Of a DNA stretch of 5,056 nucleotides, positions 2,978 to 5,055 are shown piece by piece. The stretch is from positions 1 to 5,056 of the forward strand of contig JAJYOO010000222.1 in assembly GCA_021796155.1 (NCBI GenBank). The letters run 5' to 3'. Below the pieces are notes generated by a model that was not told the origin of the DNA, made no database searches, and saw only the letters and a program-made list of their open reading frames with translations. Both the position numbers and the translations under genes were made by a program. Every line of letters begins with the position of its first letter. The first letter of the stretch is position 1. Source of the stretch: Chloroflexota bacterium (GTDB taxonomy: Bacteria > Chloroflexota > Anaerolineae > Anaerolineales > Villigracilaceae).

Positions 2978-4816
2978 TCAATTCGCTCTTTCAATCTCCA
3001 TTTCCAACTCTTCGTCAATCCGCGTTTGGATGTCATAGATTTGCCGGTAAATTCCATTTTCCTGCACGACCAAATCTTCATGCGTTCCCATTTGGACGAC
3101 CTCGCCTTTATCAAGCACCAAAATCAAATCGGCGGTCATCACGGACTGAATGCGGTGTGCAATGATGAACGTTGTGCGATCTTCCATCAAGTCATACAGT
3201 GCAGAACGGATTTCGGCTTCGGTCTCGGTATCAACAGATGACGTCGAGTCGTCCAAAATCAGAATGCGCGGGTTCTTCAAAAGCGTTCGCGCAATCGTCA
3301 CGCGCTGTTTCTGCCCGCCGCTCAACGTCACGCCTTTCTCTCCGACCAATGTGTTGTATCCATCGGGGAAGGACAAAATCACATCGTGGATCGCGGCGGC
3401 TTTTGCGGCGGTCTCGATCTCGTCCTGCGTTACGCTTCGTCCTACGCCGTATAAAATGTTCTCGCGGATCGAACGACTGAACAGGAACGGCTCCTGCTGC
3501 ACAATGCCAATTTGCTCACGCAGATACTTGCGCGGATAATCCTCCAGCTCGATGCCGTCCAACAAAATTCGTCCGCTCGTGTATTCATGGAAGCGCGGCA
3601 GAAGATTGACCAGCGACGTTTTACCCGAACCGGTCGAGCCAAGCAGTGCGATGGATTGTCCCGGCTTGATGTGGAACGAAATGTTTTTCAGCACTTCATT
3701 CTTGCCATCCGCATAGACGAATGAGACATTCTCAAAGACGATGTCGCCTCGCACCGGACCCTTCGGCTGGACGCGGCCCTCGGTGAGCGGTTCGCGCACC
3801 TGCTTGACGATCTCCATCAGACGGCCGTATGAAACCATGCCGGTTGACGTCTGTACGATCATGCGTCCAAGATTTCGGATCGGCCAGATGAGCCAAACGA
3901 CCAGACCGACGTAAACCAGATAATCGCCAATCGTGATCTCGCCGCGGATCGCCATCATGGCCGCAAAGACAAATCCGAACAACATTTGAAAGCCGAGCAC
4001 AACATCCGAAAGCGGCCAGAAGAGCGATTGCATGATGAGCAACAACTTTCCCTTCAGGAACTTGCCCCAGTTGTCCTTTTCGAACTTGCCCATCTCGTAA
4101 TCCTGACGTCCGAAAGCCTTGACCACGCGCACACCAGTCAGGTTCTCTTGCAGGGTTGTCGAGAGAATTGCTTCCTGTGCCTGATAGTCTTCATAACGTT
4201 TCGTCAACTGTTTGAAGAACCAGAGCGATACCGCCAGGATGAACGGGATGACTACAATGGAAATCCAGCCCAATGTGGCATTCAGTTCGTGGATGGCGAA
4301 CCAGTTGATCGTGAACAGGATGATGATGCGGCCCATGCCGATGGCCTGCTCGCTGAAGAAACGTCGTAACGCATCCACATCGGATGTTACACGCTCGATG
4401 AGATCACCGGTCGGCGTTTGGCTGTGATACGAGAAGCTCAAGCGCTGGATGTGATCGAAGAGAAAATCTCTCAGTCGCCGCGTGATGCCCTCGGCGGTAT
4501 ACGCCGCTAAACGTCCGGAAAGATACGAGAAGGAACCTTCCACCGCGGCCAAGCCAATGAATCCAAGTCCGATCAGCGCCAGTGTTTTGTTCAACGTCCC
4601 GGCAAGGTAGATTTTCTGAGTCAAAACCTTGTCTGCAAAATAACCAAGCAGAAGGTATGTGCAAGTCTTGGCCGTTGCCGAGATAGCCAACGCAGCCGTT
4701 GCGCCGATGTACGGCACACGAAAGTCCGACATCATGCGCCACAGGCCGGAAATGCGATTCTTAGTGAGCGCATTGCGGAAGTCAAAGTATTTTGATGAAG
4801 GTGTAATGGCAGTCAT
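2978..4816 (-). CDS. Heterodimeric ABC exporter half-transporter, subunit with Asp at the catalytic position
   Basis: This 612-residue protein has a six-helix ABC exporter membrane domain (about 35-320) followed by an ATPase domain (about 355-595). Motifs are Walker A GSTGSGKT (393-400), Q-loop Gln441, X-loop VGEKG (491-495), canonical signature LSGGQ (498-502), Walker B ILILD (518-522) followed by Asp523 where the catalytic Glu normally sits, D-loop SSVD (526-529) and switch His554. Glu-to-Asp at this place with a normal signature is the hallmark of the non-catalytic subunit of heterodimeric exporters (TM287, BmrC, LmrC). Its own Walker A/B would pair with the LSVGQ of the next gene to make the degenerate site, and its LSGGQ completes the active site. 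It is the first structural gene after the attenuator. AAGGA lies 7 nt before the ATG. The stop is TGA. The gene order (Asp subunit first) matches bmrC-bmrD. The substrate is unknown. Confidence 0.95.
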   Translation of the reverse strand: MTAITPSSKYFDFRNALTKNRISGLWRMMSDFRVPYIGATAALAISATAKTCTYLLLGYFADKVLTQKIYLAGTLNKTLALIGLGFIGLAAVEGSFSYLSGRLAAYTAEGITRRLRDFLFDHIQRLSFSYHSQTPTGDLIERVTSDVDALRRFFSEQAIGMGRIIILFTINWFAIHELNATLGWISIVVIPFILAVSLWFFKQLTKRYEDYQAQEAILSTTLQENLTGVRVVKAFGRQDYEMGKFEKDNWGKFLKGKLLLIMQSLFWPLSDVVLGFQMLFGFVFAAMMAIRGEITIGDYLVYVGLVVWLIWPIRNLGRMIVQTSTGMVSYGRLMEIVKQVREPLTEGRVQPKGPVRGDIVFENVSFVYADGKNEVLKNISFHIKPGQSIALLGSTGSGKTSLVNLLPRFHEYTSGRILLDGIELEDYPRKYLREQIGIVQQEPFLFSRSIRENILYGVGRSVTQDEIETAAKAAAIHDVILSFPDGYNTLVGEKGVTLSGGQKQRVTIARTLLKNPRILILDDSTSSVDTETEAEIRSALYDLMEDRTTFIIAHRIQSVMTADLILVLDKGEVVQMGTHEDLVVQENGIYRQIYDIQTRIDEELEMEIERAN

Positions 4817-4841: not shown

Positions 4842-4874
4842 AAAAAAGCCACGGTGCGGAGCGCAACCGTGGCT
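4842..4874 (-). terminator. Leader terminator (attenuator) before the first ABC gene
   Basis: Read leftward, AGCCACGGT (4874-4866) pairs perfectly with ACCGTGGCT (4855-4847), extended by GC/GC across one unpaired base, with a GCTCC loop. It is followed by T-rich sequence (4847-4842, then G). It lies 25 nt before the first ABC start codon and downstream of a good promoter, with only a 28-codon ORF between. It is therefore a premature, presumably conditional, terminator rather than the end of a structural gene. On the plus strand no T-run follows, so it works leftward only. Confidence 0.87.
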
Positions 4875-4995
4875 GTAAAACCAAAGAAACAGTTTGACTT
4901 ATGGACAGTCAATAGGCGCACTCCGAGGAGGGTTTAAATTGCCCGAAGCTTTACGAACGAGAATGGTGCTGAACATGCAGATCATGAGTGCGCCT
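4857..4995 (-). promoter_or_regulatory. Mutually exclusive leader RNA pairings (candidate anti-terminator)
   Basis: Three leader segments compete. Segment 1, AGGCGCACTC (4995-4986), overlaps the leader Shine-Dalgarno. Segment 2, GAGTGCGCCT (4923-4914), lies near the end of the leader ORF and is a perfect 10-bp complement of segment 1. Segment 2 shifted by two bases, CGGAGTGCG (4925-4917), can also pair over 9 bp, including two G-U wobbles, with TGCGCTCCG (4865-4857) in the 5' arm and loop of the terminator. Pairing 1:2 would leave the terminator free to form, and pairing 2:3 would disrupt it. The switching itself is inferred. The complementarity is read directly from the sequence. Confidence 0.6.
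4899..4985 (-). CDS. 28-aa leader peptide of the ABC exporter operon
   Basis: ATG at 4985 opens a 28-codon frame ending in TAA (4901-4899), preceded by a perfect AAGGAGG seven nt upstream, the best Shine-Dalgarno in the window. The peptide begins MICMFSTILVRKAS, has N-P-P-R at 18-21 and ends I-D-C-P directly before the stop. It has no hydrophobic segment long enough for a membrane helix. It sits between the promoter and the leader terminator and overlaps both alternative RNA stems, which points to a regulatory cis-acting peptide comparable in position to BmrB of the B. subtilis bmrBCD operon. Pro-Pro and a terminal Pro before stop are contexts known to slow ribosomes. I do not recognise the sequence as a described leader family. 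A structural small protein is less likely. Confidence 0.68.
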   Translation of the reverse strand: MICMFSTILVRKASGNLNPPRSAPIDCP

Positions 4996-4999
4996 CCTT
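4993..4999 (-). promoter_or_regulatory. Perfect Shine-Dalgarno of the leader ORF
   Basis: AAGGAGG is followed by 7 nt and then the ATG at 4985. Its last three bases fall in the 10-bp inverted repeat with 4914-4923. The CCTCCT at 4931-4926 inside the ORF is also complementary to it, so initiation on the leader may itself be gated by RNA folding. Confidence 0.8.
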
Positions 5000-5025
5000 T
5001 CCTTAGAATTTTATTAGCGGTTTGG

Positions 5026-5055
5026 AGTTTATCACGGGTTGTGAAAAGGTGTCAA
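5026..5055 (-). promoter_or_regulatory. Sigma70-type promoter of the ABC exporter operon
   Basis: A perfect -35 TTGACA lies at 5055-5050. The -10 is GATAAA (5033-5028, spacer 16) or the overlapping TAAACT (5031-5026, spacer 18); each matches TATAAT at 4 of 6 positions. The predicted start near 5018-5021 gives a 5' leader of about 20 nt before the Shine-Dalgarno. The window ends 1 bp beyond the -35, so upstream operators or UP elements are not visible. Confidence 0.75.

Follow-up and report, generated by a model that had tools for sequence, protein, structure and literature searches.

A multi-copy translated leader RNA ahead of ABC exporter, acetyltransferase and ribosome-care genes in Anaerolineae, probably a ribosome-mediated transcription attenuator

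The DNA analysed here, a stretch of 5,056 nt from a Chloroflexota bacterium (below, the window), carries on its minus strand a short translated leader in front of a two-gene ABC exporter operon. This leader is one copy of a multi-copy RNA family that lies ahead of many different genes, a point that goes beyond an earlier, sequence-only reading of the window. The leader is likely to be a ribosome-mediated transcription attenuator, a reading to which we give a probability of about three in four; antibiotics as the signal, a kinetic preference for one of the helices (2:3, below) and the order of events are the parts that we infer. Its copies apparently form a distributed regulon of likely resistance and ribosome-care genes in uncultured Chloroflexota.

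The sequence-only reading had described a promoter, a Shine-Dalgarno (SD) sequence, a 28-codon ORF and a terminator ahead of the first transporter gene, and all of them were recovered on the minus strand (Table 1). The promoter has an 18-nt spacer, a TG before the -10 box and 10 of 12 matches in a motif scan. In a simple scan, neither promoter-like motifs (6 found, 3.6 +/- 2.1 expected) nor terminator-like motifs (4 found, 6.4 +/- 3.1 expected) were in clear excess in the window, and the leader stands above chance because of its conservation, as it is kept in all 12 relatives with at least 76% identity. No Rfam family matched the window at its gathering threshold. Three matches at relaxed thresholds were set aside as chance, the best having 17.5 bits against a threshold of 43.

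Table 1. Positions of the leader elements and exporter genes in the window
Feature	Position	Strand	Details
Sigma-70-type promoter	5026..5055	-	-35 TTGACA 5055-5050, -10 TAAACT 5031-5026
SD of leader ORF	4993..5000	-	AAAGGAGG; from sequence
P1 5' arm (segment 1), overlaps SD	4986..4995	-	10-bp perfect complement of 4923-4914
Leader ORF, 28 aa	4899..4985	-	MICMFSTILVRKASGNLNPPRSAPIDCP; ATG 4985, stop TAA 4899
Segment 2, end of leader ORF	4914..4925	-	partners: segment 1 (by 4923-4914) or terminator arm/loop (by 4925-4915)
Small hairpin P2, contains leader stop codon	4894..4912	-	TTGACT/AGTCAA; from folding
Antiterminator 3' arm (upper 5' arm, loop and inner stem of terminator)	4857..4868	-	from folding and own-versus-swapped test
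Intrinsic terminator	4842..4874	-	hairpin 4874-4847, U-run 4847-4842
ABC exporter half 1, 612 aa	2978..4816	-	Walker B LILDDS, signature LSGGQ
ABC exporter half 2, 617 aa	1007..2860	-	Walker B FIMDEA (canonical), signature LSVGQ (non-canonical)

Folded alone, the terminator hairpin reaches -19.8 kcal/mol (-7.8 +/- 2.4 for shuffled sequences), and the whole 176-nt leader -57.7 (-41.3 +/- 3.8 for shuffled, none of 200 being as low). The proposed device consists of three segments, 1 (the SD region), 2 (the end of the ORF) and 3 (the 5' arm and loop of the terminator), which would form mutually exclusive helices. The 10-bp pairing that had been described between segment 2 and the ribosome-binding region of the leader is perfect (4923-4914 with 4995-4986; helix 1:2). 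Pairing of segment 2 with the terminator 5' arm was also found, but in place of the 9 bp first counted it comprises 11 pairs with one bulge and two G-U (4925-4915 with 4868-4857, -18.7 kcal/mol; helix 2:3). The fold of the full-length leader includes both 1:2 and the terminator. RNAalifold drew a pairing of the SD with the U-run, which has no part in the proposed device. When the competing states were folded, as the sequence-only reading had proposed, the outcome was divided: helix 2:3 is the minimum free energy structure as long as the 3' arm of the terminator is unmade (folding of 4857-4950), but with segment 1 absent and the whole terminator present the window folds into the terminator. Since the terminator wins over 2:3 once it is complete, antitermination would have to be kinetic.

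The two-gene ABC exporter expected downstream is present as a heterodimeric pair. In the Walker B motif of half 1, Asp replaces the catalytic Glu (LILDDS), and we take this Asp, together with the LSVGQ signature of half 2, to be marks of a degenerate nucleotide-binding site. With adjacent halves and one such site, the exporter is predicted to be of the heterodimeric BmrCD / TM287-288 type. The best PDB relatives of half 1 are ABCB4/ABCB1, and its relatives also include B. subtilis YheI (8t1p_C, E 7e-85) and TM_0288 (3qf4_B, E 1e-95).

A genome-contig scan gave 48 loci with relatives of half 1, of which the 13 best were inspected for the leader; ten genomes of the remaining 35 loci (at most 46% identity) served as controls. 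The leader was found upstream in all 12 loci whose half 1 has at least 76% identity, in metagenome-assembled genomes (MAGs) labeled Chloroflexi, Anaerolineales, Anaerolinea and Anaerolineaceae. In each of these, an orthologue of half 2 (73-93% identity) comes next, in one locus (L011) as two tblastn pieces. The 13th relative (L013, 64% identity) had no leader upstream, and the covariance model R1 described below found none in its genome; it also has a half 2 orthologue (64%). In L011, the only downstream ORF of the first exporter gene has 178 aa (2989-3522 and on), yet tblastn matches continue beyond it, which looks like a broken gene or an assembly error.

In a MAFFT alignment of 13 rows that was not fitted to structure (A1), GAAAGGAG of the SD is invariant. 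For P1 and P2 taken together, 96.4% of cells are paired, with 10 two-sided cells (3.2 shuffled, reached in 0 of 500) and four pairs with two-sided changes (2.0 shuffled, 13 of 500); pair types were not in excess (5 against 5.7). Two-sided changes occur in two of the eight P1 pairs, and in L004 and L005 GCGCACTC/GAGTGCGC is replaced by GCGCACTAC/GTAGTGCGC. They also occur in two of the five P2 pairs, one of which is unpaired in 4 of 13 rows. The sequence-only reading had looked to missing conservation of the ORF, terminator or pairing in close relatives as the sign against it; instead, the ORF, the SD, both alternative pairings and the terminator are conserved there, which supports its interpretation of the leader as a ribosome-mediated transcription attenuator.

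Some of the relatives contain inserts. A MITE-like element with inverted ends (TGTTTCTTAAA...TTTAAGAAACA) lies between the leader promoter and SD of L002 (about 2645-2785). In L001 (about 2881-2905) and L002 (about 2877-2904), a palindrome (GCCGCAGGTCCCGCGTTA..GCGGGAT) is inserted after segment 2 and before the stop hairpin, where it shifts the leader stop codon.

A covariance model of the window leader and its 12 orthologues (R1, 13 leaders) was run on the 13 genomes of L001-L013 and matched in 12 of them. The 28 matches comprise the 12 known leaders and 16 more, which precede genes for GNAT acetyltransferases (10), ABC exporters (4), RtcB (1) and a DUF4440 protein (1). With a model of 29 leaders (R2), 129 of 396 genomes of the class matched at E<=0.001, weak matches being checked in part. 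A third model (R3, 84 leaders) matched 37 of 400 genomes of the phylum, all of them among the 55 that had already been drawn earlier, and none of the 345 newly drawn ones (G415-G759), some of which may belong to the class because both draws were taken from larger groups. In these large draws stricter filters drop weak matches, and the E-values of the models are rough.

As controls, none of 190 genomes from the class of a Stappia genome matched R3, and 4 of 196 from the class of a Clostridiaceae MAG did so, at 33.6-35.8 bits; ten unrelated genomes gave one match, itself among these four. By eye, all four Clostridia matches were rejected as family members: L162, L169 and L170 are without an SD-led leader, and L168 precedes an ABC-F-like gene but is without segment 2. 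The last has an SD, a very short ORF and a terminator ahead of that gene (1501-1642), and is probably an unrelated attenuator of similar logic.

Altogether we examined 154 leaders from 97 genomes, the source of the window included. They comprise the window, the 12 orthologues, the 16 paralogues, 25 R2 loci and two further sets of 60 and 40 regions, with R3 scores from 39.1 to 136.2 bits. Five R2 matches with E from 1.8e-7 to 2.6e-6 (G345, G368, G191, G288, G069), most weaker ones and six weak R3 matches in the phylum were left out, and L049-L060 and L163-L167 duplicate other loci. Of 152 family leaders, 82 have the promoter motif TTGAC-N16..20-TAwAhT upstream, whereas dinucleotide shuffles would give 0.3.

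The gene behind the leader encodes an ABC transporter protein (exporter or ATPase) in 69 of the 154 cases, a GNAT acetyltransferase in 42, an RsgA GTPase or a RIO1-like kinase in 10 each, a HAD hydrolase in 6 and an ABC-F protein in 5. RtcB, DUF4440 and methyltransferase genes occur once each and nine genes are without a class; these 12 leaders are grouped as "other", and six of the nine have an ABC, GNAT or RtcB gene further on (L097, L129, L130, L134, L158, L194). The classes were assigned by BLAST clusters and best matches, supplemented by Pfam or NCBIfam scans of 27 representatives. For 38 of the 40 leaders found late, the downstream ORF has a BLAST match to an earlier target, and 37 of 40 downstream proteins of L061-L101 match the target of another locus. 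Among 79 ORFs of the upstream flanks, none matched the target of another leader (2 of 81 before correction; both were artefacts from L069, where the leader begins 28 nt from the start of the locus and the upstream slice wrongly included downstream sequence). As ABC and GNAT proteins form large families, single matches there say little, and those of RsgA, RIO1 and RtcB are more telling. RtcB RNA ligase is encoded by the first gene behind L074 and further on behind L069 and L097. In some genomes the leader stands before three or more different genes; G007, for example, has it ahead of the exporter pair (L054), a second exporter (L064) and a GNAT gene (L076).

Support for the helices differs among the three stems. 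The check for their covariation, which the sequence-only reading had suggested, gave a strong signal for the terminator, a lesser one for the SD pairing (1:2) and a modest one for the antiterminator (2:3). We used an alignment of 84 rows (A4), from which 30 of 114 leaders were omitted by hand as near-duplicates or bearers of large inserts; it was fitted to P1, P2 and P3 and therefore leans towards these helices, whereas the antiterminator lies outside the fitted structure. Across the three fitted helices, 93.1% of cells are paired, with 278 two-sided cells (76 shuffled) and 59 further pair types (44.3 shuffled), neither being reached in 500 shuffles, which ignore relatedness. Most of this signal comes from the terminator helix (96.6% paired, two-sided changes in 10 of 10 pairs). 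P1 alone is 90.9% paired (slid versions at most 72.9%) and has 44 two-sided cells (15.3 shuffled, 0 of 500). On the two measures that are least sensitive to relatedness, pairs with two-sided changes and further pair types, P1 stays within the shuffles (reached in 76 and 182 of 500). Of its two outer pairs, one is broken in 33 and the other in 20 of the 84 rows. In P2, gaps affect three of the five pairs in 27-30 of 84 rows, and the hairpin is missing from some family members. In the antiterminator, 92.4% of cells are paired, compared with no more than 68.7% when it is slid, and 10 cells are two-sided (3.7 shuffled, 0 of 500); its two of seven pairs with two-sided changes and nine pair types are at shuffle level (330 of 500 in each case).

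These figures bear on a simpler explanation, in which helix 1:2 only limits translation of the leader and a plain terminator follows, giving a short RNA and no antitermination. Helix 1:2 and the terminator are indeed the best supported helices, they stand together in the full-length fold, and the covariation of 2:3 is weak on the stricter measures. However, segment 2 pairs better with the terminator arm of its own leader (mean -16.8 kcal/mol over the 154 leaders) than with swapped arms (-14.5); none of 2000 permutations was as low and the own arm beat the median swap in 117 of 154, relatedness being ignored. With shuffled arms the mean was -12.4, the own arm being better in 142 of 154. Some changes in 2:3 are two-sided: column 168 of A4 has C instead of U in eight rows, all of which have G at column 284 (20 of the 76 others), and seven of the eight also have G at column 25, a three-way change. 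Conserved bases in the region of the terminator loop also argue against a plain terminator; G282 (79 of 84 rows) and C283 (76 of 84) are kept outside the consensus terminator stem, and in the subtype of the window they can also close an inner stem. In addition, the terminator is nearly always followed by a same-strand gene of a recurring kind, with L161, L207 and L124 (at a contig end) left unassigned. Thus, we consider the plain terminator unlikely. By eye, L139 and L182 have two tandem terminator-like hairpins after the leader ORF.

An SD-led ORF runs through segment 2 in 150 of the 154 leaders, by a rule that requires the stop to fall between segment 2 and the terminator; of the two remaining frames, 108 of 300 are open across the same interval. 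Among the four failures of the rule, L143 and L200 do have ORFs by eye, L193 stops inside segment 2 and L140 appears by eye to have an ORF that ends early. The distance from segment 2 to the stop codon has a median of 11 nt (10th-90th percentile 11-19, range 8-38), and in about nine tenths of members the stop lies 8-19 nt after segment 2. Presumably, given the size of its footprint, a terminating ribosome would thus be placed on or against this segment.

Segment 2 is read in one frame, as RSAP or variants, in 134 of 150 leaders. Because the remaining 16 read it in other frames, the RNA appears to be the more constant part and the peptide dispensable. The peptide is nevertheless constrained as well, beside the RNA. 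Arg stands at position -3 in 97 of the 134 same-frame members, encoded by CGT, CGG, CGA and CGC alike; the third base of this codon, which lies in P1, has an entropy of 1.77 bits, compared with 1.03 and 0.98. The last residue is Arg in 64 of 150 peptides, and TAG is the stop codon in 89 of 150 leaders, compared with 68 of 233 mechanically called ORFs of at least 150 aa at the same loci (Fisher p 7e-9, relatedness ignored). The use of all four CGN codons for Arg -3, the terminal Arg and the TAG excess would fit an arrest peptide, in which a C-terminal P-[SC]-R-S-A-P-x-x-R stalls the ribosome and RNA pairing is secondary. However, Arg -3 is found in none of 10 RsgA leaders and 1 of 10 RIO1 leaders, and a ribosome stalled at this site would sit over segment 2, so that the gene would stay off. 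We therefore regard such a sensor as very unlikely, and the SAP motif as sole sensor was rejected as the primary mechanism on account of the 16 leaders in another frame.

Of six patterns tried in the leader peptides, R-[LIVMF]-R in the N-terminal part was found in 16 of 150 (2.1 shuffled, maximum 7); F-rich, four-aliphatics-in-a-row and PPP/WPP patterns were not enriched in these 150. The carriers precede 12 ABC, 2 GNAT, 1 HAD and 1 other gene. None was found in 10 RsgA, 10 RIO1 and 4 ABC-F leaders with ORFs, and R-x-R is absent from the window's own peptide. Where present, R-x-R lies mostly at about codon 10-15. R/K-x-R/K is the stall motif of ketolides according to PMC8298421, and passages of PMC6310831 give RLR as a mark of macrolide leaders. 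The targets and the R-x-R motif suggest that translation inhibitors may be the signal. The same architecture would also serve an amino-acid attenuator of the trp/his type, in which the ribosome slows at codons for one scarce amino acid, and anatomy alone cannot tell the two apart. However, no single residue dominates the pooled N-terminal parts of 150 leader peptides (Val 9.4%, Ile 9.3%, Phe 8.6%), and the targets that could be assigned encode pumps, acetyltransferases, ABC-F proteins and ribosome factors rather than amino-acid biosynthesis enzymes, so we consider this explanation highly improbable.

In the ribosome-mediated attenuator that we favor, segments 1 and 2 would pair when no ribosome is present, and the terminator would form, keeping the gene off. 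A ribosome that reads to the stop codon would sit on or against segment 2, the terminator would again form and the gene would stay off. If a translation inhibitor stops a ribosome early, this ribosome or the queue behind it would occupy segment 1 and leave segment 2 free. Stalling at about codon 10-15 leaves segment 1 uncovered by the stalled ribosome, and another one queued behind it would be needed in that case. Free segment 2 could then seize segment 3 before the 3' arm of the terminator is made, and the pump would be transcribed. With the same device ahead of other resistance and ribosome-care genes, the result would be a distributed translation-stress regulon.

It is also possible, though we hold this at somewhat below even odds, that the new RNA class is a modular, distributed translation-stress regulon in Anaerolineae. 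Its output device (segment 2, stop and terminator) would be fixed and its N-terminal sensing peptide exchangeable, with R-x-R for macrolide-like drugs in some members, and Arg-TAG termination would be slow, tuned so that the ribosome stays on segment 2 and the gene off. If this were true, RIO1-like kinases, RsgA and RtcB would join the antibiotic-response genes.

Ribosome-mediated attenuators of resistance genes are known mostly from single loci in Firmicutes and Actinobacteria. The passages of PMC4191407 (Reilman 2014) describe the bmrB-bmrC-bmrD attenuator of B. subtilis as induced by ribosome-targeting antibiotics and dependent on leader translation. It shares with our leader the translated ORF, an intrinsic terminator, alternative stems and a heterodimeric ABC exporter of the same kind. 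However, bmrB as described there has 53 codons and the terminator inside its coding region, whereas the window leader has 28 and its terminator lies past the stop; here, moreover, homologous leaders stand before many unrelated genes in another phylum. The off/off/on logic is supported by mutants for hflXr in passages of PMC6310831 and was proposed, with mutant support, for bmrBCD in those of PMC4191407. According to the former, rli80-hflXr of Listeria monocytogenes has an anti-anti-terminator, an anti-terminator and a terminator, with a small ORF over the anti-anti-terminator. Its RLR motif is of the R-[LIVMF]-R type found in some family leaders here, and its target is likewise a ribosome-associated GTPase. 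Unlike the present family, it has a 14-aa ORF and one locus is described; the likeness is one of architecture. Similarly, the uORFC-6-1 motif found upstream of hflX in Bacillales is a structured RNA with an Arg-Leu-Arg uORF and a ribosome-rescue GTPase, as passages of PMC8632094 have it. It belongs to another phylum and resembles our leader by description only; Chloroflex- and Anaerolin- do not occur in the main text of that paper.

The targets resemble those of the WblC/WhiB7 regulon of Streptomyces, which in passages of PMC7157823 include ABC transporters, GNATs such as Eis, methyltransferases and ribosome GTPases; an RsgA paralogue is mentioned, and wblC itself is under a uORF attenuator. 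There, one attenuated transcription factor drives the regulon, whereas here each target has its own attenuator. An attenuator common to several genes is not a new idea, since Naville and Gautheret described attenuators before many ABC transporter genes that can 'hop' from gene to gene, along with regulons built from related attenuators, the fabH-leaders among them (PMC2965389, passages). Those passages name no ribosome-stalling family of the present kind, and the main text does not contain the terms Chloroflex-, Anaerolin- and acetyltransferase. Among the literature matches listed, titles and abstract starts gave no account of this leader; an earlier description is possible. From the sequences, this is apparently a known mechanism in a new RNA family, the novelty being one homologous device that serves many genes in Chloroflexota.

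Throughout a largely uncultured class, one recognizable RNA family stands ahead of genes for pumps, acetyltransferases, ABC-F proteins and ribosome-maturation factors. It flags genes whose role is unclear, such as those for bacterial RIO1-like kinases, HAD hydrolases and GNATs, as likely members of a translation-stress response. It also offers a way to search Chloroflexota sequences for candidate resistance genes, and to test the idea that leader peptides are drug sensors that can be interchanged in evolution.

Several other features of the window lie outside the leader. About six tandem copies of a 22-bp unit (AAAATCATCAAGACGATTTCAG) occupy 610-737, between the end of a TPR gene and the exporter operon. 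The interval between the two ABC genes (2861-2977) contains by eye an inverted-repeat-like element (CCCTGAGCGGAGTGGC... / ...CTTCGACTTCACTTCGTTCCGCTCAGCGC), and similar letters occur near 770-830; it looks like a dispersed repeat. Finally, positions 1-298 hold the 3' end of the TPR-repeat protein gene, where two 40-residue repeats closely resemble each other; this gene is separate from the finding described here.
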